The translations under genes were made by a program, and so were the position numbers. 64,000 nucleotides of DNA from Brugia malayi (lineage: Eukaryota; Nematoda; Chromadorea; Rhabditida; Onchocercidae), in contig NW_025062475.1 in the NCBI RefSeq assembly GCF_000002995.4, positions 10,606,187 to 10,670,186 of the forward strand, in the 5' to 3' direction. Numbering within the stretch: the stretch's first letter is position 1; each line of letters opens with the position of its first letter. Under the pieces are notes generated by a model that worked only from the letters and a program-made list of their open reading frames with translations, was not told the DNA's origin and ran no database searches. This document shows, one piece after another, positions 5,993 through 64,000 of this stretch.

Positions 5993-6050
5993 CCAACGAA
6001 AGTCAATAAATGAATATTTTGTTGTAATAAGTACTATTCCATTATTTTTA

Positions 6051-6410
6051 TTGCTATTTAATGTATTATTATTATTGTTATTATTACTATTTATTATTAT
6101 TTATTATTGTTGTTACTATTACTACTATTTACCATTATTATTTCTTTATTATTATTATTGCCATTGTTATTATTTGTCTATTATTATTCATTATTATTAT
6201 TGTCATTACTATTATTTATTTATCATTCGTATTTAATTAGTTGTTTATTATTATTATTGTTACTATTTATTATCATTATTATTATTATTACTATTATTAT
6301 TTATTATTATCACTATTATTATTTATTATTCTATATTACCATTTATTACTATTGTTATTATTACCATATTATTAATTACTATTATTTTTTATTTATTTTT
6401 GTATATTAAT
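6051..6410. repeat. Long imperfect ATT microsatellite
   Basis: About 360 bases of almost unbroken ATT/TTA triplets with scattered G and C interruptions. The Leu/Ile/Tyr-only open frames over it are artefacts of the repeat. A smaller AAT tract lies at 8654-8756. Confidence 0.9.
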
Positions 6411-6899
6411 ATTTCCGTCTTGGTCACTTCACAAAAACAATAAGCTAATGAAATCGCAAACATGAATAACGATAAATGATAATGTTGCTGGGTACTTATT
6501 ATCACTGATGAAATAATAATAATATTATCATAAATGATGGTAGAAAATAATGACACTAAAAATTATTTCTACTGTATATAATACCAGTAGAGTGGTAAAG
6601 GTAAATCATTCCTAACATTATAATAACAATCATCTAAAATAGTGTTTATAGGTACGATCAATAGTCATGTTAATATGAACTACCTCTCTAATGAATTGCT
6701 CAAATAATCAATTTACCAACCTTTTTCGACGTAACGATGCTGATGGAAATGAAGAAGCGGAAAAAGTGAATAAAAATCGGCAAGAACGTACAAATGACAT
6801 GGATGGTTAAGCACCTTAGTGACACAATACGACAACTAATTTCAGATGACGGCCATCAACCCTACCTACCCAACTACCTGTCACAACAGTAATGGTTCA

Positions 6900-33000: not shown

Positions 33001-35317
33001 AGGTCCTTAGATGAATTTTTCCGAATTTGACATCATAAATTTTATTCAAACCTAATGTTCTGTCGAAGATTTTCAATATTTTTCCTTTTTTGGAAAACAA
33101 AGAAAATTTAAAATTGATTTGATATAGGTGATGGCAAAAATGGTTCAAAAACATTTTGGGACAGATTCTCTCCGTGATGGACAAGCAATGTATGAATATG
33201 CTCGTGCTGCATACCGGCTTCTCTATGATAATTATTCTGGATATCGTAGCAATAGGCATGTTTTTTATTTTTCTTGCAGGTTTTTCTGTTGATTTATCAT
33301 AAGGTATAGATTAATTTATAGATGGGAGAGTAATGTTCCTGAGATCTCTAAAACTTAAAATTTTTAGCGACAAATACATTCAACTACGTTTTCGTTGTGA
33401 AAAGTATGCCAGTAAAGCACTGGAAATTTATCGGGCAAAGCTGGATAAAGAACATTATCAGCTATTAAATGCTGAAGAGCTGCAAGGTTGTTCACTATAG
33501 TTTAAAGATTTGAATTACAAAACGTTGCAAGTTCTTTTATTTGTCTTCTGGTTTTAATTCAAAATCTCGGTCATTTTTCTTTACATTAAGGAAAACTTAC
33601 CTTAAGAATTATTGTCACTAAAGTCATACCGATAGATGTGATGTTCTGCTGAAATTTTTATTAAACCAAAGCATATTGTCGCGTACTACTCAAGTTAAAA
33701 AAAAAATATATATATAGCGCTAGTTTCGATAAAGAGTACGTTACGAAATGATACCACTCAAGAACAATTGCTAAATGAAGCGATGGAAACACATATGCGA
33801 GCCCTGAACAAGTATCTCAATTTTAAAGGCGAGAATGCGAATTGTGCGAGGATTTATGATTATCTTGGCTCTATATTTCGTCAATTGCAAAAAACTGATG
33901 TTAGCATTTGTATATTTAATATTAAATTTAAGCTTGTTCTGACTTGCTGACTTACTCAACTTATCTTGCGTTATATTGAAAAGATATTCCAAACAATGTA
34001 AGGAAGCTTTGCTGCACAATGGCAATTAAACAATTTCGACCACTGAAAAAAAAATGGTTCATAAAGATTGGTATTTTTGCCTAAATTTTTATCATAAATA
34101 TTAAATGAAAATGAATTTTCCCATATAGGTTTCTGAAGAAATGTTTGAAAAAGCTTTGGCTATAAAAAAAGTTGTCTACGGCGCGTATGATCATGAAACA
34201 GCTCTCACTATGACTTCCTTGGCTTATCTTTATCTGAAGGATGCGAATCGACCTCGGGAAGCTTTGGTTCTTTTCAAAAAATGCCTTGAAATTGGTAAAT
34301 TCCTTCTTAAATTTTTTTTAGAGAAATTGTACAGTTATATTTGGTTAGTCATAATTTCTTGAATATTTTAGCTATTCATGATTGGATTATCACTGCTATT
34401 TCGTTAGCTCATAGTCATTTTTATAAATAAATAATTTCATTTTAGCTCCTTAACGTTCATTTCACAATGCTTTATCATTACATATGTAATAAGTAAATTT
34501 ATTCATTTTTCTTTTACTATTACTTATGCTATAAAGATACAAATCTTCGGAATATTTACAACATTTACTCTTCCATATTATTATCGTTACCCATAGCTCA
34601 CATCTTATATTCCACCCTCAGAATTGGATGTGAGACTTAGCAATAAGGTCAGAACTTAAACTCGAAAAAATAATCTTTACATTATTATTATTGTTATTAT
34701 TAATTATTATTGCAATTTTTAATTATTATTATTACTATTACTATTATTAGTTATTATTAATTATTGTTGCTAAATTAGAAAAATTCTTTCGAGTTGAGAT
34801 CCTGACCTTATTGCCAAGTTCCACATCCAAATTATTCTTCACCTTTTACATCCATATTATACAGATTTTTTGCTTGAAAGTAAACTTCAATAGATTTCTG
34901 ACTTTCTCGCATCTTTCATGCATACATTTATATAAATTTAAACACGAATAGAAAGTACTTTCTATCTAGAGGAAAAGGACAATATCGATTCGTTCATCCC
35001 AACATCTATATGTTATAATTTTTGCAGAGCTGAATATATTTGGTGAGGAATATTCTGGACTTGGCATTATTTATGATGGAATGATGTTAGCCTATGAAGA
35101 AATTGATGATTTGGCAGAAGCACGAATTTATCGTGAACGGCTGTACATATGGAAAACTAAGATGAGCATCCTTGATGAAACACCATCTGATAATCCCTTT
35201 GGGGGATCGTTATGCATCAACGAAACATTTCAGGATTTTACCCTTGAATGCTTTGAAAATCTCACTTCCAGTGAAACGAAACATTCATCAGATGTAGAGG
35301 TGAAAAAAGAATGTTAA
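30031..35317 (+). CDS. APPBP2: APPBP2 (PAT1)-like TPR protein with N-terminal extension
   Basis: Exons: 30031-30264, 30455-30504, 30594-30841, 31148-31406, 31524-31666, 31792-31921, 32085-32228, 32333-32417, 32706-32909, 33128-33255, 33368-33486, 33718-33899, 34129-34294, 35028-35317; about 793 residues. From residue 178 it follows human APPBP2, which starts there: VDFMMKYLNIAGSLENAVVN matches the human start, then CALLYVLGHYKKSMEFCLKAL, LCDYGDCLLNSDHVEIAV, EEMFEKALAIKKVVYG, and FGEEYSGLGIIYDG. These are TPR-type helices. Human APPBP2 binds the APP tail and microtubules and is a substrate receptor of a CRL2 ubiquitin ligase. The first 177 residues (acidic start MANDDEEQMAVQDENEQG, then a helical MIEHLIRQRDEMRQLVMQR) have no human counterpart. 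Exons 1-2 are the least certain. The intron after 33255 uses a GC donor. AATAAA lies 22 bases past the stop. Confidence 0.82.
34624..34830. repeat. Foldback (inverted-repeat) element in the last APPBP2 intron
   Basis: Arms of about 48 bases at 34624-34671 and 34783-34830 are inverted copies sharing CAATAAGGTCAG and ACTCGAAA.AAT with a few mismatches. They enclose about 110 bases of ATT-type repeat. It looks like a small non-autonomous foldback element or MITE relic. I could not identify target-site duplications. Confidence 0.7.
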
Positions 35318-35659: not shown

Positions 35660-35830
35660 ATTTTAAATAATAATAAATATTATTATTATTATTATTATTG
35701 ATTTATTATAATAATAACTATTATTATTTTTTATACTATTATTAATTAATTAGTTATTATTGTTATTATAACTATTATTATCAGTTATTATTATTATTAC
35801 AATTATTACTAATTACTTTTATTATTATTC
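35660..35830. repeat. ATT microsatellite
   Basis: Imperfect ATT/TTA triplets over about 170 bases. A similar but shorter tract is inside the foldback element at 34681-34770. Confidence 0.85.
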
Positions 35831-44545: not shown

Positions 44546-44704
44546 CTACACATTGTATCAGCCCAACAATCGCTACAATATGAAATAATCATAGCATCCC
44601 AATAATCGCTATCACGGTTCATGACTGAAAATTCGAGTGATGTTGTTAACTCTCTTCTTCCCTTCTCTTAATCAAATGTCTTATGAGTACACGGATGTCC
44701 TTAT

Positions 44705-44730
44705 CATTTATCACTTTCAGGTGATAAATG
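44705..44730 (-). promoter_or_regulatory. Perfect 10-bp stem-loop in 3'UTR (left copy)
   Basis: CATTTATCAC, then a six-base loop, then GTGATAAATG: a perfect inverted repeat 53 bases downstream of the stop of the minus-strand peptide gene, next to a poly-A/T run. It could fold in the mRNA as a stability or processing element. The loop does not match iron-responsive or histone stem-loops. Confidence 0.5.
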
Positions 44731-44782
44731 CAAAAAAAAAAAAACAGCGAATAGTATCTACAGCAAACAAATCGTTCCATCC

Positions 44783-44956
44783 TTAGTGACCTATTGAATG
44801 ATGGTGGAAATGTTGATGAGGGAAGTGTCCATGATGGTGATGGTGATGATACTGATGCCATGGTTCATCCCAGTCATCGTCCCACCAGTCAGATGTTGTC
44901 ACCGATACTGTCAACAGAGCTAACAATAATATTGTGGCAAATCTTAGTGATACCAT
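44783..44956 (-). CDS. Secreted His/Trp/Asp-rich peptide, short form (left copy)
   Basis: 57 residues: a signal peptide (MVSLRFATILLLALLTVSVT, cleavage probably after TTS), then DWWDDDWDEPWHQY, six histidines, and an ending HQHFHHHSIGH. The mature peptide is about 35 residues with a Trp/Asp head and a His tail, likely secreted and able to bind Zn, Cu or Ni. It is a paralogue of the longer peptide at 45459-45677. Where that one continues GGHGG-like in frame, this one has TAA at the same place (GGTCACTAA against GGTCACGGA), so it looks like a truncated duplicate whose frame is otherwise intact. An acceptor-like CTTTCAG sits 6 bases upstream of the ATG. The copy at 62227-62400 has the same sequence. 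Function is not known. Confidence 0.75.
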   Translation of the reverse strand: MVSLRFATILLLALLTVSVTTSDWWDDDWDEPWHQYHHHHHHGHFPHQHFHHHSIGH

Positions 44957-45128
44957 TTCCCCCTGAAAGAATCTTGAAATTGTTATTCGGCAGCTTTAAT
45001 CAACAGTACTGTGTGAGGAACAGAAATAAAAATTTAAAAAAATATTTAGAAAATATTGCCCTGTTCTAACTTAATGAGGAAGAGAAGAATTAATGAGAAT
45101 GTCGCGGTGGAAATGAATTGAGAACAAC

Positions 45129-45268
45129 TTAAATACCCGAAATTAGGCCAAAAGCTAATATTACTTGTAAGACTGGAAGTGGGAAAATTGCAGTCCAACA
45201 AGAAGCTATAAAAAAATTCTTTTCCCATTAACCTAATTCTAAGCCTGTTTCAGTATTTGATATATAAG
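45129..45268. promoter_or_regulatory. Bidirectional promoter region of the left peptide gene pair
   Basis: TATATAAG at 45261-45268 (plus strand) points to the long peptide gene. About 60 bases on, a donor ACTCA|GTAAGT at 45331 pairs with the acceptor TTGCAG at 45456, giving a 5'UTR intron of 126 bases directly before the ATG. TATTTAAG on the minus strand (45128-45135) points to the short gene. The two TATA-like boxes face away from each other about 125 bases apart. TATA function is inferred from position and sequence. Confidence 0.55.
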
Positions 45269-45458
45269 CATCTCTTTTCTGAACTTCCTTATAGCAACCT
45301 GAACAGAATACCTCTTCTAACAAGTACTCAGTAAGTTTCTCCATTAGTCATTCCTTTTTACTAAAGTTTATTTAATCGATAATTACCTAACTTATCTCCT
45401 TGGTCATTTTTTGTGGCGTAATTCGATGTCTTAAATGCTAATTATCTGTATTGCAGTG

Positions 45459-45677
45459 ATGGTATCACTGCGATTTGCCACAATATTATTGCTAGCTCTG
45501 TTGACAGTATCGGTGACAGCATCTGGCTGGTGGGACGATGACTGGGATGAACCCTGGCATCAGTATCATCACCATCACCATCGTGGACACTTCCCGTGGC
45601 ATCAGCAACATTTCCACCATCACCCACATCACGACGGTCATCATTCGTTTGGTCACGGAGGATGGAAATGGGATTGA
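45459..45677 (+). CDS. Secreted His/Trp/Asp-rich peptide, long form (left copy)
   Basis: 72 residues: the signal peptide MVSLRFATILLLALLTVSVT with likely cleavage after TAS, then GWWDDDWDEPWHQY, five His, RGHFPWHQQHFHHH, and an ending HSFGHGGWKWD. About a third of the mature 50 residues are His and seven are Trp, with an acidic head; there is no Cys. It is probably a secreted metal-binding or antimicrobial-like peptide, but no known family is recognised. The start is the ATG at 45459 right after a TTGCAG acceptor; the upstream ATG at 45435 lies inside the proposed 5'UTR intron. The copy at 61506-61724 differs by one residue (RG against HG). The downstream flank is not shared between the copies, so the two loci may end in different 3'UTRs. 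Confidence 0.8.
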   Translation: MVSLRFATILLLALLTVSVTASGWWDDDWDEPWHQYHHHHHRGHFPWHQQHFHHHPHHDGHHSFGHGGWKWD

Positions 45678-45681
45678 TATA

Positions 45682-46388
45682 TTCTTTGGCAATGTTCAAC
45701 TGTTTTGCCTCGTATTTGACAATTTCTTCTATCTTAAATTATAAAGCTTTTCTTTGTATTTATTGGTAAATAGCTCAACTAGAGATATAAACGTTTATGA
45801 AATAGTATGCTTTCACTACCGTAACTGATCAGTTGCAGATTGCAAGTAATATCATTGCTACTAGAATGGTAAAGTATTAAATAAGAAGCAAATTTTCGTC
45901 TTTTTTTTTTTTCCTGCCTTTATTCCCTGATCAATGAACTTCTTGACATAATTTGGTCCAATTATAGTAGTTTTTTAGTAAGGTATTTTCAAATGTTAGT
46001 GCTTCGTCCTATTCTGAAATATCAAAAAAAAGCAGAATACAGCGAGTTCTGAGATTTAGTTAAAGTTTTAAATGAATGATGACAGCAGAGTTGATATGTA
46101 ACACAGATACTAAAAGCTGAATATAAAAAATGAATGGACAGCCTGAAACTAATGGACTCAAGCATATACTTTCTATTTGCATAAAGTTCCAAAATTTTAT
46201 AAAAAGTTTATGAAACTTATCATTTAATGGAGCAAAAATTTTAGAAATTATGTCAAATGGAGTCACTTGAAGAGATAAACAATGGAATTATGAAGAATAC
46301 TTAGTGAATTCCTAAGTTTTATTCAAAAATGAAAATGCTAGAGTAGTAATTATAGTGGTGACTTCATTAAATATATAAATTAATTCTT
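45682..46388. other. Intergenic region inside the inverted arms
   Basis: About 700 AT-rich bases between the left arm and the 3' end of the orphan membrane-protein gene. Only a T run near 45900 was noted. The sequence differs from the corresponding inner flank of the right arm. Confidence 0.5.
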
Positions 46389-47512
46389 TTAACTTTTTTC
46401 CGATAATGATCTTGTGAAAGATCTTGTTGTCGCTGATACGGAAGATGGCCTTTTCACGTGCATATTCGTCCCTCTTCTGCTGCGTGACGTTATAAACTTG
46501 TCATTTGTAATAGTTGATTTCTTTGGAATGCTAGTTTTCGAATTCATATTACTTGATTGTATTGTTGATGAAGATTCTATATCAGTGTTGACATTTCTTT
46601 GATATTTCCTTATCCCTTCTGTGTCATCTTTTCGTGTAGTGCATGAGCTTGATTGCTGTGTAGGAGATGTACACAATAACGATACTAAAACTGTTTCAAT
46701 TTAAATTCATTTGCAGCTGCAGGATGCAATCATCCATGCATGCAGCATGTAAAACGCTAACAATATGCTCTATAACAGAATAGCGGGAAATTGATCCACG
46801 CAACGTAATGTGCTTACGCAATTCTCTAGATGATGGGCAATTTCGAGCAGAAAAAATGGCTCTGATTTCTTCTCTGCTGCGATTAGCATTGCAATTAAAT
46901 TGTTTTTGGCATTGGAACTGTTCTTCGGATATACTATTCTGCAATCATTCTATCATCGTTCATTATCATTTTTCAATTTGAATCTGTGACCGTAACAGTT
47001 ACCCACTCTTTGATCCTATGAGATTAGATAATACTTCTTATATTTAAATGAGGCAAAATATATTACTTTTACTGATAAGATCAATAGTGAAGTTAAATGA
47101 TTTTATATAGATATAATGGTGACAATCACTTAGATCTCGAAATATCTGTGTAATCTTTTTTTCATGCGACTGTGAAATTAAAAATAAGAAAGCTTTGCAT
47201 TAAAACTATACTAATAATTCAAAGATTCTTTAAGCATAATATAGTCGTGATGCTTGATTTAAATGATGCTATTTCTTGATTTTTGAATATGCTTGCTATT
47301 TCAATTATCCTTGAAAGTATGAATTGAAATGACGAAGGTAAGAAACAACTAACCACTGGAATGATAAATTTTTTTGGTCTAAATTCAAGTAAAAATTGAA
47401 ACATCTTTTGTTGCTTTCGTTCCAAAAATTCAAAGATAATCGCTGGTACAAGGAAGATAAGTGGCAGCAAAGTCATTAAAATAATCATTGCTACCGTTTC
47501 ATATAATTTCAT
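46389..47512 (-). CDS. Uncharacterised single-pass membrane protein
   Basis: Proposed exons: 47354-47512, 46818-46938, 46389-46684, joining in phase to 191 residues. Exon 1 begins MKLYETVAM and is followed by a strong hydrophobic helix (about residues 8-28) and a basic ERKQQK segment, fitting a signal anchor with a cytosolic Lys-rich edge. Exon 2 carries four Cys in CQKQFNC and ARNC with an acidic/basic helix REEIRAIF. Exon 3 is a Ser/Thr/Arg-rich, probably disordered tail ending SFTRSLSEKS. Donors CCAGTG|GTTAGT and TTGC|GTAAGC and acceptors ATTGCAG and GTTTTAG are acceptable, and the phases (0 then 1) agree. An acceptor-like TTTAAAG is nine bases before the ATG. No known domain is recognised. 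It lies alone between the inverted arms. Confidence 0.45.
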
Positions 47513-50500
47513 TATTCCGAACTTTAAATTGCAGACAGGTAGTATCAGTGATATAATTTTTAAGTTATTGTTCAAAATTTGGATAGAATTAACAAATATT
47601 GGAAATACTGAGATATTTTCTTTATGTGAATCTCATTTTTTTTAAAAAAAAAAAAAAAGGTAAGCGAAATCAATTGCACATTTCTTCATTGACATAGTAA
47701 TTAATTATAAAGAAGTAATACTAATTAAGAAGTAATGTAGATCATTTAATTGACTTGGAAATTTTGATTTTAATTGTTTTACAGGGCAGGAAATGTCCAA
47801 ATAGTTAATGGGACATTTTTCCAGAGACATTCTGTGTGATTGCATAGTGAAGTGATTCCAAAATAGATTCATGAACTTGAATCTCAAATCATATTTTGAT
47901 GTATTGTGCTGACAAAAAATGTGTATTCTTGGCTGGTCTAATAATTTCATCAATGTAATTAGCATCTTATGATTTTGATCAGTTCTGGCTGAAGGAATTA
48001 TTGTTATCAGACAGGAAAAAAAATATAAGAAGAATTATGCTGACGAGTCATAAAAGTTAATTCAAAGGTATACTGATGGTTTCTAAACGATATTACTTGC
48101 AAGCCTCTAACAAGTATTTTCTCACTTTTTGAACTTAACTCTAAAATTGGCTATGTGCATGAAATAAATGAATGTACATAAATATTCATATAAATAAACT
48201 TAGCAATTAATGTATCAAACATAGGAGAAAATATTTGATTTTGTCCGATTATATTACAAAATACGAGATCTTAAATCATGCGATCAATGTTGTTCGAAAG
48301 AATTTTTAAGATACATGAACAATTATACCATTTTAATTGTGCAACCGGTTCACTGAGAATTCTTTTTAATCAAACAACGCTCTGTTTTAAATTATTCCTC
48401 ATTATATATCATTATGAAATGAAAGTGATAGCAAGTAATTTTAATAAAATATTAACAACAACATTTTCTATATGAATTACTCTTAGATGGAATGAAAGAG
48501 ATAATTTGATCATTCAAATTATAACTGCTGAAAAAAGAACTAAGATTTTAGTGATAATCCATGAATGGACTATTGCGCATTTGTTCAACTTTAGAGCTGA
48601 TTTATATCTTGTTCTTTAAGACTTCATAAAATTCTTGTTAGATTTTCAAGTCTTCATCAGTGGTAAGTACTGCGTGTTATGATTCTGAAATATTAGAAGA
48701 ATGAACAAAATAAGTGAGAAATTGTTAGCTTTACTTTGAATTCTGCTTTGCAAGTAAAAATTTTTTCTATAGCCTTTATGATTTTTTCTTTTTTTATGGT
48801 GTTTTGTTGCTTCACATAGGTTAGTACAAATCATTTTTGATCGAGCGCATAAGTACTGGAAAAGGACTGGAAATCGAACACTAAAGATCGAATATCCGGT
48901 ATATAGTTCTCTCTTGTCATTGTAAATTTCATTTGTTTTAGAGAACTATTTCTCTCTCTTCCATGCTTAAAATCAACTAAATTTTCCGGATCAGTAGTTC
49001 TTGTGTGTTTACTTAAATTAGTGAAAGATGCAAAATTTATTGAACACTTTCTTAATTTAATTAATACAGAAATTTAATTGTTTTGACTTAAATTCTGCAA
49101 AAATAAACGTATCCCTTGAAGATTTGCAACACTGAAATGACTGGTTTCTTTTGACCGCAGATATGACCGGAATGAAGAGAAATTGGATAACACTGAAAGA
49201 AAAGTAACAATGATAAAAAGGAAATGTTGACGGAAAGGAATTGAGAAGGGCGGTGATATATGAGAATTTGAAGGATGTGGGGAAGAAGTGAAAGGTCAGT
49301 GGGAAATGATTTTGACAATTTACGAGTCGCTTTAACCATTTACCGACTGGTTTCAAATTTTTCTCTAAACTTTATAAACTTTATTGATATTAAAAGAAAA
49401 AAAATTTTTTTTTTGTTCAATAATTCTGTTAATAATGAAATGTAACTATTGGTAGGCTATTAATGAGTGAAATATTACCGAATGATCAGTCAAGGCGCAA
49501 TTGTGATTTATGCATCTCGAAGCATTGTGAGCCAATTTATATTTAATTTGATGCATTTGAATAATGATGAAATGTATTAAAATAGTACAATCGAGCAAGA
49601 AAATGTATGTTTTATAATTTTTTCAGCTTAAGACTTCTATTCAATTATTATTTACTTTGAATAATTGCCATAAGCAAAAAAAAGTTCAATAATAACAAGT
49701 TTGAGAAGTTTTTTATTTTTTAATAATTCAGCAATGAAATAAAATAATTTTTGCTTTTTCTTCATTGAATTTTTAATGGAATTTATAAGATTACTAACAA
49801 ATAACTTATAATACTAACAAAGCATTAGACCATAAAATAATTACAAACGTATAACACAACTTTAAAAGTTTTGAAAAAAAGATGAAAGTGTTAAAGTTAA
49901 CGATAAAATACAGATTAGAAGAAAGGAATTGAACGTCTTCAATCTGCGATAGTTTAATGTTTGAAACAAATGAAAGAGTTAATAAAACTTAATCAACACA
50001 AGCTTTATTAGCTGAGTAGTGGTGGGAAAAAATTGTCGTCTTGAGATGTCCTGTAAAGAATGGAAATTATTTCTCGATCGAATTGTAAAATGACTTTTAA
50101 ATGCCGTCTCAATGGTCAGATGGAAAATCTCAAAATAGGAAATAGAAAAAAAAATAGTCATAATCATTGATTGGTGATTATCGTTCGCAATGATTTTTCC
50201 AAATATAAATGTAACTATTTTACCTCAGAAAACCAATGTACATCGAAAATGAATTTTGTTCAGTCAACAAAATGTCACAATTCTTAACTACGAGAACACA
50301 CTATAATAGTTATTACTTAATTAAAGGATATGGTCGATTTATTCATAACAATTTGAAATTATAACTTGAAACTATAGTCACTTTTGTATTCTGCACTTCT
50401 TTGAAGAAGCTATCAATGCATCCTTTTAAAAGCACAAAATTAAAATTTTTAAACTCTGTTTCGCTTCCATTTCTCTGAGTACAAGTTTAAGCTAAAAATA

Positions 50501-52127
50501 GTCAATAACTGACTGATAAGTGCACTTATAATTAATATTAAATCAAATTGTAATTTCAATGAGTAATTCAAATAATATACGAAAGATAAACGATAAATCT
50601 GAAAATCTTAAATCAGTAATGAGTACTTTTTTGTTTATCGTTAAAATTGAGAGTTATAGAATGTTGAGGAAAACAATCACATATCTGAAAGATAGAAAAT
50701 TTGGAATATGCAGAAAGAACTTCTAATTTTTTGATAAATTCCAAAAAAAGAATTATTATTTTTTTTTTTTTTTTTTTGTTGGATTTTTCTAATATTTGGA
50801 AGCCATCTAAAATTAGCATCATTTTCAAATTATATGGACCATGTAAATTTGTAATCATTTAATGAAATTTAGAGATTTAAATAAGAATTTTGCTGATTTC
50901 TCAAGTTTCTCAGAATTAGGGATATTGAGAAGGAAATATTAGAAAACTTTCTAGAAAACATTTTATTTAGTTTCATTGTGCATTATTTGTTCAGATCAAA
51001 GACATTGTTTGCATGAATCCCGAGATATATCGAGAATTCTGCTATCAAACTATGAAACTGACAAGACAAATGTTTCTTTTACATTATTTTATTATTGCTT
51101 CTTCCACTTCTATCTTCATTAAAAATTTTTTTTATCTTTTAATAACTAATTTCCTGATAGCTAGTAATTATTACTTACTAACTTTAGTAAATAGCGGATA
51201 TTTGCGTAACGTAATTAATTAATGAAATAGCAATTATTGCATTTAATCATGGTTATAACTTATTTTATTTTCATTTCTTAATAATTTATTTCCTTTTAAA
51301 GTGCTACGATCATTATGAAAAGCACTGGAAATCTTTTCACTCCCAACAATAAGAATTTTACCTAGTGAAATGAATACATTCAATAAAATTTGAAACAGAA
51401 GCAGAATGATCATTGATATTTCGATCACTGCGACAATAATAGTGATTGCTTATCAGACGATAGACGATGCTGATTATTTCATCTTTACTCTTCTATATTA
51501 TCATTTTTTTTATCATTTCATTTAGTCTAATAATTATCCTTTTTAATCAATCTTAAGCCCTATTTTGTTGTTTTGCGTGCGAAAATCTTCTGATATCAGT
51601 GATAATTATTATTATCACGAAATCTCACATGATTAAAAAAAAAGGTTTGCTAGTCGCCGAAGTGTCCATTGTATGTTTAGTTTGCATGATGCACATATTA
51701 ATGATAATTCTCGAAAACATTTCGTGTTAACTTTCTTTGTGAAATCCTGTAATTGAATTATTTTTTGATCAATTATATCCATCCCTATATAAAGTACAGA
51801 AAAAGATAAAAAAAATTTAATAATCATCAACAATGGTCATTTGTTACTTTGTAGAAATTTTTCATTGTGAATTTCTTATCAAAAATTTCTTTATCAATTT
51901 GCTTTATAAAGCTGTTATAATTTATTCAGCTATTTCCTGAGTTTTTTTTTTCTCTCCAAATTGTTAAACTTAATAATTTCAAATTTTAGTGATAGCAATT
52001 CAACTATTCAATTTCATTTCTATTTTAAATTTATTTTGTTTCGTATCAAAGGTACGTGTTTATATTACATACGTAAATAGTCATTTGAGCAAATTTTGCA
52101 GTTTGTAAAGTGCTCTCTTATTTTGAA
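47513..52127. other. Gene-poor AT-rich region inside the inverted arms
   Basis: About 4.6 kb of AT-rich DNA with A and T runs and no convincing exon on either strand. The promoter of the vWA-ZP gene should lie at its right end. AAATTTTGCAG at about 52100 is an acceptor-like site 27 bases before that gene's ATG. Confidence 0.55.
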
Positions 52128-55100
52128 ATGCGGCAAATTATACGAAGATTTGCAATACATTTCGTAATAATTATAAATGTGAGTTTCTTTTAAAATTTTT
52201 TAAATTTTCAATCTAAATGTAATGAGAAACTTTCCAAATGCGAAATTTTTTTAGACTTAAATCTCCTTAATTAGTCAATTATTAATAACTTTCATCGTTT
52301 TCCATTTCTTTATTTTAGAGAATTTAGAGAGAAAGAAACTGAATGAGAAGTGAGTGATGTGGGCTAATAAATAAACGTCTGACGTTTCAAATGAAAATAA
52401 TAATAATATTGAAATTTAAATAACTTTGAAAAATCTGAATTCTTCCAATCTTAAAATTATCACTAATAATTCATTATTATTTGGGTGAGAAAGTGAAATG
52501 GAATCTTGCAAGAGGTCACAATTTATTTATGAATGATTTCATTGGCAAAATCATTTCATCTTTGTTTCTTAGAAATCTTTGCATTTCTTAAAAATGTGTA
52601 CGTATTGGGCGGAGAAAAGGTCTTTGTTGAATTCGCACTTCTGTGGCTTTTGCTCTTTGGCGGTGATTTTTGATTGATCCATTAATGAAAATTAACACTA
52701 ATTTAATTTTGCTTCAAATATTTCCATAGGGAATGTCTATAAATTGACATCATAATTAATATTATGAACCATTAGTGATCTAAATTAATTTAATTCAAAG
52801 AAAATTAATATAATCTAAAGCAATTTAATTCAATGCAATTGGTTGAAGTTTGTGAACATGAATTTTATGGAATGAAATTCAGTTTCTAAAAATTCTGAAA
52901 TCTCAGATTTATCTTTCTTGATGTTCCAAATTACTTTCAGGTAGTACTGATCTATAGAAATACTACAGCAACTCCTGATCATAACCCATCATTTGACTAT
53001 CACTCTCAACACCACACCGATAATCAGAGAACATCAAGATTTAACGAAAATGAACAAAGTCAACAAAAAATCGCTGATGTTTTGGATGATAAATCAATCA
53101 ATAATGTACACATTCAAATATTTCTGGTTACTCCAAATAAAACTCCCACAAACTCCAACATACGAACAAATGAACTTCGTAATAAAGAAATAGGTAAACA
53201 ATTTCTCATCAGTTCTACTGTTACATTTGCGCTTTTATTTTCACGTTTATATTTTTAACTCTTCCATTTTTGTATAGTTATTAGTTTTTTTTTATCATGA
53301 AGTAAATATGATTGCATTGTTAGGCAGTCAAGAAAATCCCATATCACTTGAAATTGATCTTGAAAAAGGTACCGTAGACGAAGTAAGCAATAGCCGCCAT
53401 GTGTCGCCAAGGATCAATGATGAAGTGAGTAATGAATTTCTTAATTTTTCAAGATTTCGTTAAAAAATCCACAATGGATTGAAGAGTTATAGAAGTATCA
53501 TTAATAATAAATTAAATATAAAAGCGGAAATGACGAAAAATTCTCTTAAAACTTTAATTCACTTTTACGTAATGATTTTTGTTGTGTTGGTAATAGAAAA
53601 TTCAAAAAATTATACTGCTAATTTACATGTATACAACTAAGTTATAAAAGGAATTCCATTACATTTACAAGAAAAATCGCTTGAGCAGTGGTTTAATGGT
53701 TTAAAAAAGTAAGTTTCTAGTGAAAAGAAAAATGCTTTATGGACTTTTTATCTATCAATTTTGTTTTAAATTAAAAAAATTTCAAATGTACCCACATTTC
53801 TTTTTAAAATGAGATTTAAAAAATCTTTAATTAATATTTTTCAGGGAAACATTGCAACATTTATTCAACCGATTGATCAAACTAATAGAAATAGCAAAAA
53901 TGGAATGCAATCCAAGAAATTTGAAGGATTATCAATTGAAGAAATCGAACCATCGAAGAGATTTAAATCAAATTCTGATAATGTAGCAGCAATAGACAGA
54001 AATTGGCTGAGAGCTAATTTTGATAAAATGAGTCCAGCTACTTTGAATGTATCGGAAAACGGATTTTCAACATCGAATCATATCAATAACATTAATTCGA
54101 ATTCATCTACCTATAGATTTGGAAACTTAGAATCAAGCCATATCGTAGATTATTCGTCATTTTTCACAAAAACTCCATCTATGCAAACAACTACACTAGT
54201 TTCAGATTTCGAAGTTGTTTTCATTTCTCCTGAACAAATTCCCACTACTACAACAATTTCTATTACTGATAATGAAATGCTATTAAAGCAAACATCAGAT
54301 CAACAAAGTTCTGATGCAACAATTAATTTTAATCCCAAAATATTTTATGAAGATAAACATTCCGGAACGTCAAGCACACAAACCGTGCACTTTCTTCCTA
54401 ACACCTACAGGATTTCAGAGAATGAAACAGATTTCAAAAAAACGATTTTTTCAAGCACTGGTCATAATGCCGTTTCTAAGAATATTTTACCTTTTGAACC
54501 ACTTTTAACTTCCACAGTTTCTTTGCCAAATGCAACACCGGAACTATTAATTTTTACTAACAAAAAAAAATTTGATCCAGCTCACGTTGGAATTAAACTA
54601 CTACCGGTATTCGATGAAACCAGTAGATCGTCAGGTATAACTTTGATTGAAAACATTACTGAATCGAAAATTAATTCTGAAAATCAGTCATTATATTTTG
54701 GTCCAGCACATCCGGTTGCTTTCATTGCGGTAGGTGATCGAGAGATTCTGGATGAGCAAAAGTCACACAGAGAAGCTTCATCAGTTCTCACAATTCCGCA
54801 TATTGCAGTTGGCGAACAGATCAGTGAGATGCAAGAAACTTATCCTTCAGATTCCGCTGAAGATGAAACTATGATTATGGGAAGACAATCAATGATTGAT
54901 TTATTACAAAAACAGGATAGTATTAATACAAAACGTATTTCATCTCAGGAACATACGATGGAATCAGCTGAAATAGCAGAGCAAACACAATTCAAAAAGC
55001 CTTTTCGTTCCGGATTTAATTCAAGAGATGGAATAATTTTACCTGATCTTACTACTCAAGGGCAAAACATTTCCTCGCCGGAAATATTTTTAATTCCAGA

Positions 55101-58100
55101 ACAAGATTTTATGGCTTCTCAACCGGATTACATAGAACCGATTGATTCAGTAAGAACTTTAATTTCGAGTGAGCATGCACCACCGTCTGCTGAATTTGGA
55201 ACAAAGCGAGGGAAAAGTGAAATTCTGAAATCTGAATTAATAACATCGGTTAGCATTCATTTGCTAGAACTATTAAGACATAATTTATTCAACCACAATT
55301 ATCATTAAATCTAACCAGACTTCAAGCAATTAGTGATAAAGTAAATATTTCAGAACGTGATTTCAGAATTTCATAAATAAAACTATTGAGAATGAAGTAT
55401 AGTTGAGATATTGAGATACTTCTCAGTAGGGCAATAGATCTGTTTACAGTTTTAGGATTTCTATTCAAAGATAATTTAAATGATAGCAAAGATAAAATGA
55501 TTTCACTTCTAATGATTCTATTACTTTCTGTTCAAAATTTGTCAAGAGTCGGAATGTAAATATAACTAGTTATTGATAATCAATGATAAATGATTAAAAT
55601 TTTGTAGCAATCAAATACAAACAAAATAAAGGTCAGTGAACCGATCTATTGTGATAACATTGCTACCAATGAAGGTAACTTATTTTTATTGAGGAAATTA
55701 TTTTTTTTTTTAATTCTTGAAGCATGAAAGAAGCGATGTCACATATGATTAGGAAGACATATTTTAGTATGAATTTCTTACTAATGGGAACATGATGTGA
55801 TATTTCAAATGTAAAATTTTGTGCTAATTTTTGGAGTATGGAAAGAATTCGGTAGAAATTTAAAAGTAAAATTAAAATTAATACGGTAGTCATACGATGT
55901 CATACGAAAAGATTTTAGAAATATTAACTTCGAAGTGCTAAATAATTTTTATTGTAGGTGAATGTCCGATAGTAAATGATAAATCTGATCAAATACGATC
56001 CGATATATTATTCTTATTAGATACTTCTCATAATATTACTAAAATATACTTTCAACAAGCGGTGAAATTTATCATGGACACCGTAGAACAATTTAAAAAT
56101 ATTGGTCCTGATGGAGTGCAGGTTAAATTAGATTTATTAAAATTCATTAAATTTCCATAATTTAAAAATAATGATTAAAATAAAAATATTAGTAACGAAG
56201 TTTTACTTCATTTTAAAAATGTCATTTTTAATAAAATTTTAAAGTTTAAATTCATTTTTATTGAGCAGATTTCATTGGTACAGTTTACACGTGAACCAGT
56301 GCTGGAATTTTCATTCCGTAAGCATAATTGTAAACCTTGTCTTCTTGCTGATATTGGTGATACTGAATACATCAGTGATTTGAATAGTGTTGATAATGTC
56401 ATTCATAAAGTTGTCAAATATGGTTTTAGCAAACGAAGAGTAAGTTTAATAAAGATTTTCAGTTTCTTTTTTTTTAAAAAAACAATCAAATTAATTTATA
56501 AAATTTAAACTATCAAAGTATTAGAATAAAATTTGCAAATCTTTTCACTTGATATAAAAATTCTTTTATATCACTGCAATATCTTCTTTACTTTAGGGTG
56601 ATAGGGATGAAGTGCCGAATGTACTTGTAATGGTCAGTAGCGGTATGTCCAGTGGTCAGTTCCATGAAGCGTTACAGGTAAGCTTATTTTATAATTAACT
56701 CAAAATCTAAACGATTTCTTCATCGTTAGCTTATCTCATGCAAAAAGGCCAGTTAAATTGTTCGTCTTATACTGTCATCAAAGCAAATTATGAATGGCTT
56801 AACATAAAATGGACAATGGCCAACAAAGATGTCCAAATGCAATTTAATTTAAAAATAGTAATTAATTTTAGTTACTTGATCCAAACAATATAACTGTAAT
56901 AATAGTATCCATCAAAGATACAAATCCTCAATTGATTAAACAACTTATCAGAGACGAGCATCATAATCTTATCTTCAATGTAACTGCAGTGAACAATGGT
57001 CAACTAGCTGATCATTTAGCAAAGCATATTCGAACCACTACAAAAGGTTAATTAAATTTTGCCATGCGAAATTTTTAAAATAAAAAAAAGTTGAAATTCA
57101 CGAATGTAATAAAATTATTGCAGTAAAAAATTTTAATAATTTGATCGCACCAAATGGATTCTTTTTGAAAATTTCATTAGAGGTAAGGTAGATAGGTAAT
57201 TCGGTTAAAAATGGATTGAGACTGTTTACGGTAGCAAATAGTGGTATTGTTTTTCTAAATTATGTCTAATTTAAACCATATAATATGTTTGAAAATTTTA
57301 AGAAAAATTAGCATTTTTCGAGAATAGAATAGCAATGGAAATGGATCAATCAGTTCAGGAATTTACTGTTCAATGTTTAAATGATGGATTCAATGTAACA
57401 TTTAAATTACTCAAATCATTTGGTGGAACTATCGTTGTTCGGGGTATGAGAGAAAAAGCTTATTGTTGATTAATATTCTTCAAATAGTTTTGGTTTTATT
57501 TTACTAATTTAACCCATTTGTTCAATATAAAAGCTTTGATTTGTTATCTTAAGTGGATAGCAATGAAAGTTTTTTTTTTTTCTTTTTTATTTTCAATTAT
57601 CAAAAATTTTTTTGCTGGCTGATTAATTTTATTTTTACACTAATTACTGAAATAAATTTGGTTTATTTAAGGTAAAAATATGACGAAAAATTGTTCAAAA
57701 ATTATTCAAGCTGAACAATTCGGTGAACGTATTGACACTCGTGAAGTTCATTTCTTCATTAGTTTTAAGCAATGTGATATTGAAGAAATAATATCGGTAA
57801 GAATTTTTATTTATTAAATTAATAGAACGATGGTGAAAACTCAGATTTGTCATTTGCTAATTTATATTTCATGCTATCAGTGAGAGAGGGAATAAGAGAG
57901 AAGAGGGAGAGAGAGAGAGAGAGAGATTAGTCTAATCAAGTAGTTATCACAGTTGACACGATTCAGTTGTCATAGCTATAAGAAAGCAGCGATAGTTATT
58001 GTAACTTATTGCTGATGTCATTTTCACTGTCCATTCTTGACAATAATTAATAATAATGATAAAGTGATAACATAAATTTAATGATAAAGTGATAACACCT

Positions 58101-61001
58101 TTTTGCTCGCTGTTTTATTGAACTTTATAGAATTAATAGTATTCCATAGAAGAATTTGAATCAATTTAAATTCGCAGGTAAATCCAGCAGGACTGAATTA
58201 TTCCGCACTGATCAATATAATTCACGACAAATGGTTAGTAAGTGATGCAGATAAGGGATTTGTTCTTCAGTGTTATCAACCTCAGCAGTTACACGAATTA
58301 ACAAATTTGCGCATTAATCAGCGCCCACAAGGGTTAGAATAATTTACCTTTAATATATTAGTTCAATTTATAAAAATTTAGTTAAAATATTTCAGTTAGA
58401 AACTTAAGTATATTTGTTTTTTGAAGGATTAAATTTCTCCAAAAAATTTATAGGGAATTTGTTTTTTTTTTTTTTTTTTAAATCCTAATTTTGAAATTGT
58501 AGTTCTTTTGCTGTGACTGATATTGAAATTTTATTCATAAAATTTTTGTAGTAAGAGAGAAGCAAAGTGAAAAAAAAGACGACTATAAAATATGGTGCTA
58601 TTATAATAATAAAGTTTGCCAAAACTTTTTTTCCAATTTTTCGAAATAATTTTGTAATTTTAAAGTTTGAAAATAACCTATCTTTTGAGTGCCAATTTTT
58701 TTTCTTTGTTAATTTTAGTGATATTAAAATAGCAAAAATATTACCACTGAATTCAATACCACCATTATGTAATTATACAATTCGAGCGGATACACCAAAT
58801 GGACCGATAATCCAATATGCTAAACTTGGCGATACTATCTATCATAAATGGGAATGTGAAAATAATCACCGTATGATTCTTTTTTTTTTTGTTTAATTCT
58901 TTAATTAAAAAAATATTTCAGCATTAATTGTAAAATATGGTTTCCTCTACTGTGTGAATTATATACTGAAATTATTTTTGTCGCAAACTTTTAAATATTT
59001 TAATGACATATTTAACTTTTACAAGTGCGTTTGCTTTACATTTGGTGTGAACTTTTTCAATTCAATTTTTTTAACAAAATTTTGAATGGGAATAATTAAA
59101 ATTTCCTGATTCTTTAAAATTTAGTTTAATCCCATTCTTTTTAGAGTAACTGAAAAAATGTAATCGCTTTAAAATCGAAACATTGCAGAAGCATTAGATT
59201 TATACGGATTACACATTCATGATTGTTATGCTAAATCAGAAAGCAAACAACAACAACAACATATTATAATCGATAGTAAAGGGTAGAAACTTTTTTTCCT
59301 CAAAATTATCATTTGATTGGAAAAAAAAAAACTTCATTTTGAAAGGTTTTTAGCAATCAAACTTGAAAAGATTTTAAAAATCGAACAACATAGCACTGAT
59401 CATTAATGAGGCTTAAATAAACTCTCTTCTATATTCAATAAATAATTTGTAGTTACCATGCAGAAGTGCTCGCCTTTTTCTTTTCCTCTTTTTTTCAAAA
59501 TATTTCGAAAATGAATTAAAATAAAAAAATATTTGCAGCTGTATTGCGGATGCGAATATTGTTAACGATGTGATTTACTCCGATGATAAACTTATGGCTT
59601 TTGCATATGTCAAAGTTTTTAAACTTACCAATTCGGAACATTTATCATTTCATTGCAAGATTAGTTTGTGCATTAAAAGAGCGGATGGTTGTGAAGGAAT
59701 TACAGTAATAAATTTTGTCACTTTGTTTTTTTTTTTTTTTTCCTAAAAATTTTTCGGCATTTGTAATTAGAAATAATTTAGCAAGCTCATTATTGTATTG
59801 CTATAGTATTGATGTAAATTTAGCACTTATAAATTCTCTGAAATTTTCTTCATTATTTGATTGCAAAACTTTAAACTTTTTTTCAAAGAAAAACTAGAAA
59901 ATTTCATTGGAAATTATTTAAGAAAAGGTTAACATAATCAGAGAATTCTCGAATGTAAACTACAAAAAATATTTTATAAAAACTCATATAGCATACTAAT
60001 ATTCATCGCCAAATGTTTAACACTTTGATACGTTTTTGAATTTTAAGTATAATTGAAAACACTTATAAGTGAAAAAATTTTTAAATCTTATTTTCTAGGT
60101 TTTCATTTGTTTTTCTTTCTACCAAAAAAATTCCCAAAATAAACATATTTATAGCCACCTCGATGTCCAGGAACCGATTACAAAGATTTATTGATTTATC
60201 ACCGGAATCGTCATAATACGGAATCTTTCTTGGCTGCGCTAACCACTGAGGAAGAAGTTAGATTTACCGTTGTTCCATCAATGAATGTTACCGATTCAGC
60301 CTTTTCGCATCAAACCGTTAAGGAACTCTCAAATACAAATTTACTTTGGTTGATGGTTATCCTTATTGCCTTATCTGCTATTATCCTTTTGATCCTTATC
60401 AGGTTCAAATTTTAATTCTTAATCCTATCTTTTTTTTTTTTTTTTGGTTTGAAACTAGTTAACACCACTATTGTTATTGTTATATGTATTTGATCATTTT
60501 GACAGATAATTATTATTTTGAAAACTATAATTTTTATCCTATTCAAGTATGATACTTGGATTATAAAAAATATATCTGCTTAAAAATGTATCCAAAATTT
60601 AACTGAAATTGAAGATTAATATTGTATTCCAGTTCTGACCAATTTTCAGATACATTACTAGAATGAATAGCAAGGATGAATTTATAGCTTCGGAAAGTTT
60701 AAAAAGGCATAAAACTATCGATAACATTGATTACATCACATCTGCAACAACATTTGCAAAATTTTTGTCAAACGAAAAAAGGGTAAAGAAGGAGCAAAAC
60801 GATGCGTGTCGTAGCGAATCGCTAAAAGGAAAAAATAATGATGGAGAAATAAAAACTGAAATCGTTTCTGTTAGTCTAAATTCTACTAACGATGGAATTA
60901 GACCATCCGTTAAGTATGATTCTTCGGATGGCACTGTATCAGCCACGGAATCTCGTCATGTTCAATTTGATCAACATGATGGATCTTCTTGGTCATTTTA
61001 A
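52128..61001 (+). CDS. vWA plus ZP-domain transmembrane protein (cuticlin-like, CUT-6 architecture)
   Basis: Sixteen exons: 52128-52178, 52941-53193, 53324-53424, 53845-55168, 55958-56121, 56269-56439, 56597-56677, 56872-57046, 57303-57443, 57672-57796, 58178-58332, 58719-58870, 59189-59282, 59539-59704, 60155-60402, 60650-61001; phases join, 1250 residues. Order: signal peptide (MRQIIRRFAIHFVIIIN plus VVLI); Ser/Thr/Asn-rich region to about 577; vWA at about 590-770 beginning SDILFLLDTSHN, where the metal site DxSxS reads DTSHN; ZP module at about 793-1055 with cysteines in FTVQC, FKQC, VLQC, LCNYTI, WEC, HDC, GCIAD and CKISLC plus the nematode signature LGDTIYHKWEC and CEGIT.PPRC; membrane helix 1114-1133; 117-residue tail. 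vWA-ZP proteins such as CUT-6 assemble in the cuticle. The donor after 55168 is chosen for phase. Confidence 0.85.
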
Positions 61002-61501
61002 TACTAAAATGTTTATACTTCTTTTTGATTTATCTCAATTTTAATATTCATCTCACAATTAAAATTTGCCGCAAATACGATATTATCAAATCGTTTTTTA
61101 TATAATACTGCAATTCTTTTTCATTTGTCTTTTATATTAATCCCTTATTTACATGAATAAGATGAAATAGAGATATTACGCAAATATTGTTCTAAACCAT
61201 AGTTTTCCTTTAAGAAGTGATAAATACTATAAAAAATTACTGTATGTTAGTATGAAAATTTTTGAAATTAACTCGATCAATAGTAATTAGTTTTCTAGAA
61301 CTATAAAATTTTATCGACCAGCTGCTAACTTCTAGGAATCTCAAAATTACTCCATATATTTTTGAAACTATTTCATGCACCTAATATTATTACAGTATAA
61401 AATAAAAATTTCTTTTATTTCAAATTACAGAGAAATTACAGTAAATTATTTTTTTAATCAAAAGTCGTTTTGGAAAACAGCAATACAGTTGCATTTTACA
61501 T
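61002..61501. other. Intergenic region, 3' side of the vWA-ZP gene
   Basis: About 500 AT-rich bases holding the likely 3'UTR of the vWA-ZP gene (nearest AATAAA at 61401-61406) and then the inner edge of the right arm. No coding signal. Confidence 0.5.
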
Positions 61502-61505
61502 CATA

Positions 61506-61724
61506 TCAATCCCATTTCCATCCTCCGTGACCAAACGAATGATGACCGTCGTGATGTGGGTGATGGTGGAAATGTTGCTGATGCCACGGGAAGTGTCCAT
61601 GATGGTGATGGTGATGATACTGATGCCAGGGTTCATCCCAGTCATCGTCCCACCAGCCAGATGCTGTCACCGATACTGTCAACAGAGCTAGCAATAATAT
61701 TGTGGCAAATCGCAGTGATACCAT
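61506..61724 (-). CDS. Secreted His/Trp/Asp-rich peptide, long form (right copy)
   Basis: 72 residues, same as 45459-45677 except for His in place of Arg after the five-His run. The signal peptide, the GWWDDDWDEPW head and the HSFGHGGWKWD end are intact. The mirrored 5'UTR intron (61727-61852) and TATA box (61915-61922) are present, so this copy should be expressible. The 3' flank beyond the stop is unique to this locus. Confidence 0.8.
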   Translation of the reverse strand: MVSLRFATILLLALLTVSVTASGWWDDDWDEPWHQYHHHHHHGHFPWHQQHFHHHPHHDGHHSFGHGGWKWD

Positions 61725-61914
61725 CACTGCAATACAGATAATTAGCATTTAAGACATCGAATTACGCCACAAAAAATGACCAAGGAGATAAGTTAGGTAA
61801 TTATCGATTAAATAAACTTTAGTAAAAAGGAATGACTAATGGAGAAACTTACTGAGTACTTGTTAGAAGAGGTATTCTGTTCAGGTTGCTATAAGGAAGT
61901 TCAGAAAAGAGATG

Positions 61915-62055
61915 CTTATATATCAAATACTGAAACAGGCTTAGAATTAGGTTAATGGGAAAAGAATTTTTTTATAGCTTCTTGTTGGACTGCAATTTTC
62001 CCACTTCCAGTCTTACAAGTAATATTAGCTTTTGGCCTAATTTCGGGTATTTAAG
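61915..62055. promoter_or_regulatory. Bidirectional promoter region of the right peptide gene pair
   Basis: Mirror of 45129-45268: a TATATAAG box on the minus strand at 61915-61922 for the long gene and TATTTAAG on the plus strand at 62048-62055 for the short gene, facing outward from each other. Confidence 0.55.
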
Positions 62056-62226
62056 TTGTTCTCAATTCATTTCCACCGCGACATTCTCATTAATTCTTCT
62101 CTTCCTCATTAAGTTAGAACAGGGCAATATTTTCTAAATATTTTTTTAAATTTTTATTTCTGTTCCTCACACAGTACTGTTGATTAAAGCTGCCGAATAA
62201 CAATTTCAAGATTCTTTCAGGGGGAA

Positions 62227-62400
62227 ATGGTATCACTAAGATTTGCCACAATATTATTGTTAGCTCTGTTGACAGTATCGGTGACAACATCTGACTGGTG
62301 GGACGATGACTGGGATGAACCATGGCATCAGTATCATCACCATCACCATCATGGACACTTCCCTCATCAACATTTCCACCATCATTCAATAGGTCACTAA
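62227..62400 (+). CDS. Secreted His/Trp/Asp-rich peptide, short form (right copy)
   Basis: 57 residues, with no difference seen from the left copy 44783-44956. The ATG follows a GATTCTTTCAG acceptor (62220) by six bases. Either a cis intron with an unidentified 5' exon or spliced-leader addition would fit. The frame ends in TAA, where the longer paralogue reads on through Gly-Gly-Trp. Confidence 0.75.
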   Translation: MVSLRFATILLLALLTVSVTTSDWWDDDWDEPWHQYHHHHHHGHFPHQHFHHHSIGH

Positions 62401-62453
62401 GGATGGAACGATTTGTTTGCTGTAGATACTATTCGCTGTTTTTTTTTTTTTTG

Positions 62454-62479
62454 CATTTATCACCTGAAAGTGATAAATG
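62454..62479 (+). promoter_or_regulatory. Perfect 10-bp stem-loop in 3'UTR (right copy)
   Basis: CATTTATCAC, loop CTGAAA, GTGATAAATG, 53 bases after the stop of the short peptide gene. Identical to the left copy. It follows a 14-base T run. Confidence 0.5.
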
Positions 62480-62638
62480 ATAAGGACATCCGTGTACTCA
62501 TAAGACATTTGATTAAGAGAAGGGAAGAAGAGAGTTAACAACATCACTCGAATTTTCAGTCATGAACCGTGATAGCGATTATTGGGATGCTATGATTATT
62601 TCATATTGTAGCGATTGTTGGGCTGATACAATGTGTAG

Positions 62639-63120
62639 CGAAACTGGAAATAAAATATATCAAATAAAATAAAATTGTATTACATCCATAAAACTAAAAG
62701 TTGTCTTATTTCATGTAGACCATTTATTTTGTTTTCATCTTCCAAATAGATTGTTTACACGGTATTAGCTTCTTATTTAGTTGACCTCATAGCTATTATT
62801 TCGTCATTAATTGTAAATTATGTTTGAATTTACACCATTAACCACTTTGGCTTAACTGACTTCCTTTATGGTTTATCAACTGGTGATTAGATTTACTTAT
62901 AAACCAGGTCAAGATTAATTTCCCTTTCGGCAAGTCAATTTTTTGTAAATCGTGTACTTCGTTCATGCATACTGCTTGCTATACAAGGAGGTCACTCATG
63001 TTCAATTAGAATATATTATATACATATATTATATATATCAAACCACCATTAACATTCCAGAAATTGATCGATTATGACACTGGAATTCATAGGAACACAT
63101 TCAAGAATAACTTAATCTAC
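62639..63120. other. Flank between the right arm and the retroelement
   Basis: AT-rich DNA with AATAAA hexamers just outside the arm (about 62649-62675) that could end transcripts of the short peptide gene, and a TA-rich stretch near 63010-63040. No clear long terminal repeat was recognised. Confidence 0.45.
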
Positions 63121-64000
63121 AGGATGACGAACAAGTTTTAGAAAGGTTCAAAGGAAATATCACAAAAAACAATGGTAGATAGCAAGTTGCTTGGCCATGG
63201 AAAGAATCCAGAATCAAATTAAACGATAATTTCGGATTGTGTCTTGGTCGCCTAAGATCCTTAACTAAACAACTTCAGAACGATGAACTCAAATATGACG
63301 AAACGATTCGCGATCAGTTACTATTTGGCATTATCGAAAAGGTATTTGCAGAGATGGACCAGTTGGAGTTACTACCAATAAAAAGAAACCGCAACGATTC
63401 CTTTGGTTAAAGGATATAAACGGACAAGTAATAGATGATAATATTGAATATTATCGATTTAAACGAGTCCCATTTGGAATAATATCATCACTACTTTTAT
63501 TATCCGCTACACTTAACTATCATTTGGAAAATTACGACAATGAACTCGTTAACGAGATTAGAAAAAATCTCTATGTCGACAACACTACAGTATCAACCAA
63601 GTGTATCTACGCAAATATCAAGAAATGAAAAACATCTTTAACGATGCCTCAATGAGTGTTAGAGAATTCTTATCAAACAACAAAGAATTCAATTCTAAGA
63701 TTCCCGAACAAGATCAAGCAGAGACAAACGAGTTTAAAAGGATTCTTGGTATCAATTGGAACCCAGGTGAAGACATTAATTCAAATAACCCTAAAACCTT
63801 GGAAGAATCAAGTACCAATAAAAAGAACAGTATTACAGTTCCTAGCTTCTCAATATGATCCCTTAGGATCCCTAGTTCCATGTACAATGCCGATAAAATT
63901 ATTTCGTAAAAATCTTTGGAAAAAGAAAGTAAGCTGGGGCCAGTTAATAAGTATGGAGGATCAGAAGAATTGGGAAGATCTTACATGTGCATGGTCAATA
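63121..64000 (+). pseudogene. Decayed BEL/Pao retrotransposon Pol fragment (runs off the right edge)
   Basis: Blocks in three frames resemble BEL/Pao polyprotein in order. Frame from 63123: QVAWPWKE, then GRLRSLTKQL and a GIIEKV motif, with an in-frame TAG at 63180 and a TAA at 63408. Frame from 63389: [20 protein letters not shown] and YVDN (63572-63583), the reverse-transcriptase active-site region. Frame from 63601: FNDASMSVREFLSNN and KRILGINWNPGED. Frame from 63824: LQFLASQYDPLGSLVPCTMP to the edge, the Pao-specific (peptidase A17 family) region. The part normally found between GIIE and RFLWLKD is mostly missing, so there is an internal deletion besides frameshifts and stops. It cannot encode an active element. 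BEL/Pao elements are common in nematodes. Confidence 0.85.

Follow-up and report, generated by a model that had tools for sequence, protein, structure and literature searches.

A segment of 1.14 kb on Brugia malayi chromosome 1, which carries two small genes for histidine-rich peptides, has a nearly perfect inverted counterpart some 15.8 kb away. It is likely that one recent inverted duplication of the left copy (the left arm) made the right one. We reached this view from a window of 64,000 nucleotides (positions 10,606,187-10,670,186), together with searches of the surrounding DNA and of the whole genome. One cyclophilin exon in this genome matches PDB 1a33, a B. malayi cyclophilin, at 74 of 74 aligned residues. 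A first-pass annotation had described the repeat and made no mention of the genes inside its arms. With them, a bare repeat becomes a dated kind of event, in which a gene pair of a human parasite was newly duplicated; the duplication may still be polymorphic.

The inverted repeat

Alignment of the window to itself with BLASTN pairs 44546-45680 with 61503-62638 on the minus strand at 99.824% identity over 1136 columns, with one mismatch and one gap across the whole length, non-coding DNA included. Direct inspection of the bases places the substitution at 45583 (G) and 61600 (A, in the arm's sense), where codon 42 of one of the genes reads CGT (Arg) or CAT (His), and the gap in a run of A from 44732 that has 13 letters in one arm and 14 in the other. 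The near-identical repeat with one substitution and one homopolymer indel, as first described, is confirmed by both approaches. Its outer ends (44546 and 62638) also stand; its inner ends, given as 45681 and 61502, are each one base too long and are corrected here (Table 1).

Beyond the arm ends likeness ceases, with 3 of the first 20 bases identical on the outer side and 5 of 20 on the inner side in ungapped comparison. Within the arms, the outermost differences sit 185 bp from the outer edges and 97 bp from the inner edges. When the whole window was shuffled with dinucleotides preserved (n=5), the best off-diagonal match was 20-31 bp in all five shuffles; because nothing exceeded 31 bp, a chance origin of the arms is excluded. 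No N occurs within the 144 kb read around the repeat, and the background of pairs of at least 300 bp and at least 90% identity in this DNA is four, two inverted and two direct.

Table 1. Positions of features in the window
Feature	Position	Strand	Remarks
Left arm (unit A), probable source copy	44546..45680	+	Window self-alignment; source role inferred from flank comparison
Possible hairpin between gene a (from 44775) and gene b (to 45667)	44775..45667		Pieces 83-95% complementary, 502 nt loop
Gene a, left arm	44783..44956	-	57-aa His-rich peptide, signal-like start
TATA-like box and putative 5' UTR exon of gene b, left arm	45207..45330	+	
Putative intron of gene b, left arm	45331..45456	+	126 bp
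Gene b, left arm	45459..45677	+	72-aa His-rich peptide, Arg42
Spacer with VWA and cuticlin-type ZP pieces (+ strand)	45681..61502		15,822 bp
Right arm (unit A'), inverted near-identical copy	61503..62638	-	Window self-alignment
Gene b, right arm	61506..61724	-	72-aa His-rich peptide, His42
Gene a, right arm	62227..62400	+	57-aa His-rich peptide, protein identical to left-arm one
Repeat block, 2 bp outside right arm	62641..63014		81% alike to a stretch near unit B, partly present elsewhere

Several other repeats lie nearby. A direct duplication at 97.7-98.6% identity pairs 63044-63511 and 65957-66759 with a stretch at 97864-99123 (window scale, downstream) in which the two pieces are joined, so that 2.4 kb was either lost there or gained at the split copy. 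The DNA at 62639-64000 contains repeat and reverse-transcriptase pieces with at least 76 genome matches (40 of 171 candidates scored), among them an RVT_1 match at 63299-63625 below the Pfam cut-off; the element may be of Pao/BEL type. More than 20 copies elsewhere have nearly equal scores (68-69%), a hint that the family is young. Long degenerate arrays of ATT/TAT type at 6015-6413, 34681-34777 and 35678-35829 match one another.

A divergent pair of peptide genes in each arm

Each arm holds a back-to-back pair of small divergent genes, a (57 aa) and b (72 aa), whose peptides are rich in His and Trp: the 50 residues that follow position 22 of right-arm gene b, a cut chosen by eye, include 18 His and 7 Trp. 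Both genes open with a hydrophobic, signal-like stretch. From the look of the N-terminus the peptides are likely to be secreted, and their composition alone makes metal binding likely. Splicing of the putative intron of gene b yields the start MMVSLRF, exactly that of the Loa loa protein LOAG_17952 (hereafter P0001), and this common start supports the spliced model. The 164-bp repeats inside the arms had raised the idea of RNA genes (snRNAs), which we rejected, as the repeats are the peptide genes themselves; the window has no Rfam match at gathering score and no tRNA.

The single coding difference between the arms is the Arg/His replacement; there are no synonymous ones. Arg42 occurs in the left arm only; P0001, the peptides of gene a and all remaining copies of gene b have His instead. 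Arg42 arose after copying or is a sequence error; indeed, sequence error could account for this substitution as well as for the difference in the A-run. The copied genes in the right arm look intact. Gene b there has a different 3' flank and hence a different 3' UTR.

About 5.8 billion proteins yielded two relatives, both hypothetical proteins of Loa loa. P0001 is 74% identical over the whole query, and LOAG_11164 (P0002) is a weak profile match (E 0.08); the sequence search returned one protein of 2 candidates and the profile search two of 2420. The B. malayi peptide itself is absent among the protein matches listed. P0002 has the same leader as the His-rich peptides, followed by an Arg/Gln-rich remainder without the His run. 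As a protein query it matches only itself, and in the B. malayi genome it finds only the same seven places as the His-rich peptides (best E 2.5e-4). This likeness of leaders makes possible a family with a conserved leader and variable cargo, like some defence peptides. Gene b has no Pfam match at E 1, the NCBIfam matches of both peptides and P0001 are all far below cut-off, and the best PDB match (E 0.017) is to His-rich or other tails. The family looks little studied: in the literature on histidine-rich filarial or nematode peptides and on LOAG_17952, searched under these names and mostly outside subscription papers, no title or abstract opening describes it. Our analysis brings to notice a small family of His/Trp-rich peptides, which these searches located in B. 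malayi and Loa loa only.

A cluster of four units on chromosome 1

A genome-wide search at protein level (E up to 10) identified seven genes for His-rich peptides, all on chromosome 1 between 10,650,963 and 10,729,256. They fall within 78 kb into four units, both counts being lower bounds: the arms (units A and A') have two genes each, unit B, located 72 kb rightward of the left arm, has two, and B' has one. The last is a shorter inverted copy of B. The two are 97% identical over 544 bp and differ by 10 substitutions and one indel of 6 bp, as against one substitution in 1135 bp between A and A'. The first-pass annotation did not include the pair of B and B', whose position is 54-61 kb rightward of the right arm. 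The same picture is therefore seen twice, with a right-reading unit followed on the right by an inverted copy of all or part of it.

Units A and B are old. They are 80% alike overall by BLAST, 59-62% alike in flanking DNA and in the DNA upstream of gene a, and 74% alike in the intron. Two stretches depart from this pattern. One is the block of TATA-like box and 5' UTR of gene b (45207-45333), at 97% between A and B where other non-coding DNA is mostly near 60%; a genome search with this block yields only the four known units. The other comprises the first 126 nt of gene a, which differ at one position between A and B (99.2%) and are flanked by DNA at about 62%. The best A-B segment, 135 nt with one mismatch, was reached in none of 2000 permutations, and dS is 0.04 over the 126 nt of gene a versus 0.49 for gene b. 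We read the gene a stretch as a probable conversion tract between units 72 kb apart, for which strong selection on the sequence is an alternative. From the promoter block, at 97%, it is clear that other parts of the unit are subject to selection or conversion as well.

Origin of the right arm

Which arm is the source can be judged from the flanks. The left flanks of A and B align with a score of 62, where the best of 200 shuffles reached 46; this is the only one of 12 flank pairs whose score no shuffle reached, and for the left flanks of A' and B 60 of 200 shuffles did so. Because this older A-B homology passes the outer edge of the left arm, and the right arm adjoins a repeat at that point, the left arm is probably the source and the right arm the copy. 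The evidence is modest, since the call depends on 105 aligned bp at 59% identity to the left of the arm edge. Neither inner flank has a second match in the genome, and the two are unlike each other. A' lies between DNA without a second genome match and a repeat block 2 bp away, and its outer end falls within 2 bp of the end of this block, which is common to the neighbourhood of B. Insertion of A' into a continuing repeat was considered and rejected: the continuation beside B does not match the DNA across A' from the block, with a score that 126 of 200 shuffles attain. On the ancestral orientation of the spacer the comparison gave no signal: when the right flanks of A and of A' are set against that of B, 95 and 152 of 200 shuffles respectively equal the score, so neither resembles it.

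Three readings of the repeat had been offered at first pass: a very recent inverted duplication, ongoing gene conversion, or an assembly artefact. The duplication fits best, given identity to the last base at both ends and the A-B flank homology. The right arm could instead be older, its likeness restored by recent conversion between the inverted arms. A conversion-like tract is present in this family at gene a, and had likeness been confined to the genes by the time conversion set in, a common end at the gene b stop codon would follow naturally. Yet the identity spans 1.1 kb of mostly non-coding DNA without decay at the edges, and the outer edge falls inside sequence in which A and B are still alike but A' is not. 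In Drosophila, many older duplicate blocks are described as having raised edge divergence, read as mutation working against conversion (PMC2588116). The present arms are free of differences over their outer 185 bp and inner 97 bp, although with two differences in all this is a weak test. Because the edges are undiverged, a single recent duplication is favoured over long gene conversion, which is not needed to account for the arms and which we consider rather unlikely. What speaks against a single duplication is that the inner ends of A' and B' coincide after the gene b stop, and an older homology edge kept by conversion could yield the same. The agreement, within 2 bp, between the outer end of A' and the edge of the block common to the B neighbourhood also counts against it.

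An assembly artefact, in which a piece of the left arm was misplaced at the edge of a repeat, is less likely again. The right arm does lie between single-copy DNA and a repeat block, and the published assembly, built on PacBio reads, optical maps and manual curation, is described as including grafts from an older assembly (PMC7181701). Those same data types lend the assembly support, however. Both inner flanks are unique and different from each other, there is no N nearby, and the arms differ at one base, at which the left arm is the odd one. Moreover, these genes make up another inverted pair close by, which has plainly diverged (97%) and shows that copies of this kind do arise in the region. 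A mobile element that contains the gene pair is a very improbable explanation of the arm. Four units in one region, with copies that end at one point on the gene b side, would suit such an element. Against it, the genome search, whose counts are lower bounds, places the units (at least four) only within 78 kb of chromosome 1 and not dispersed, and the other ends of A' and B' differ; by eye, no short target duplication was seen in the flanks of A'.

Under the favoured reading, a single recent duplication, the divergent gene pair of the left arm would have been copied as a piece of 1.14 kb and placed in opposite orientation downstream of a gene with vWA and ZP domains, at the edge of the repeat block. 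Template switching or break-induced synthesis between nearby sites could have done the copying. The likely first effect would be a higher dose of the peptides.

A possible hairpin and the common end of the copies

All four units diverge just after the gene b stop codon, and none of the six pairs of right flanks is alike. The parting of A and B at this point may reflect drift. In the two inverted copies, likeness ends 3 nt past the stop in A' (45680) and 2 nt past it in B' (117588, window scale), that is, 13 and 15 nt past the end of the inverted repeat formed by genes a and b (45667 and 117573). A hairpin of the gene pair may thus have set one end of the copy, to judge from where A' and B' stop. 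Copying guided by it would explain the common end, an unproven lead that comes from two events. In yeast without Mre11 or Sae2, breaks near inverted repeats are described as leading to inverted duplications at high frequency (PMC10622511). It would be a further step, and one we think doubtful, to propose that replication is repeatedly broken or stalled at the base of the hairpin of this near-palindromic pair, which would thereby seed inverted copies of itself, and that a filarial-restricted family of secreted metal-binding peptides grows in this manner, with conserved leader and variable cargo. If the hairpin does explain the common end, the cluster would offer a natural test of the way in which nematode inverted duplications begin.

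The spacer and its possible inversion

The vWA-ZP gene that had been proposed in the spacer is supported by a VWA match above the Pfam cut-off (55942-56157; a second, at 56179-56505, is below) and by two cuticlin C-terminal pieces on the + strand, at 58555-58893 above cut-off and at 59525-59743 with 28.9 bits against a cut-off of 30. In the region of the proposed orphan membrane gene, three minus-strand ORF stretches (46392-47632) have no Pfam match at E 0.5. Long, near-identical inverted arms of the kind that generate inversions are present, and it is plausible that the spacer inverts through them and that both orientations segregate. Such an event would reverse the vWA-ZP gene and exchange the 3' flanks between the two copies of gene b.

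Comparison with known systems

The mechanism of duplication is ordinary for nematodes, and the peptide family is mildly interesting. Newborn duplicates in C. elegans are reported as often adjacent and inverted, mostly intrachromosomal and compact, with a median span of 1.4 kb (PMC2728529). Like the young inverted duplicates in that account, the B. malayi arms lie close together on one chromosome and on opposite strands, are about 1 kb long, and have very low synonymous divergence, with no synonymous change at all. Unlike them, the arms hold a whole divergent gene pair and stand 15.8 kb apart rather than adjacent. As in inversions described in humans, near-identical inverted repeats flank a segment; one such inversion has a likely breakpoint region of 782 bp at 99.9% identity (PMC3961182). 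This is shorter than the present arms, which by that measure are long enough for inversion, although the B. malayi locus is known in one orientation, unlike the human cases. Finally, small peptide genes that multiplied by recent local duplication recall the nlp-29 antimicrobial cluster of C. elegans, as presented in PMC2453101. The B. malayi peptides differ in being rich in His and Trp, and the likeness is one of cluster growth.
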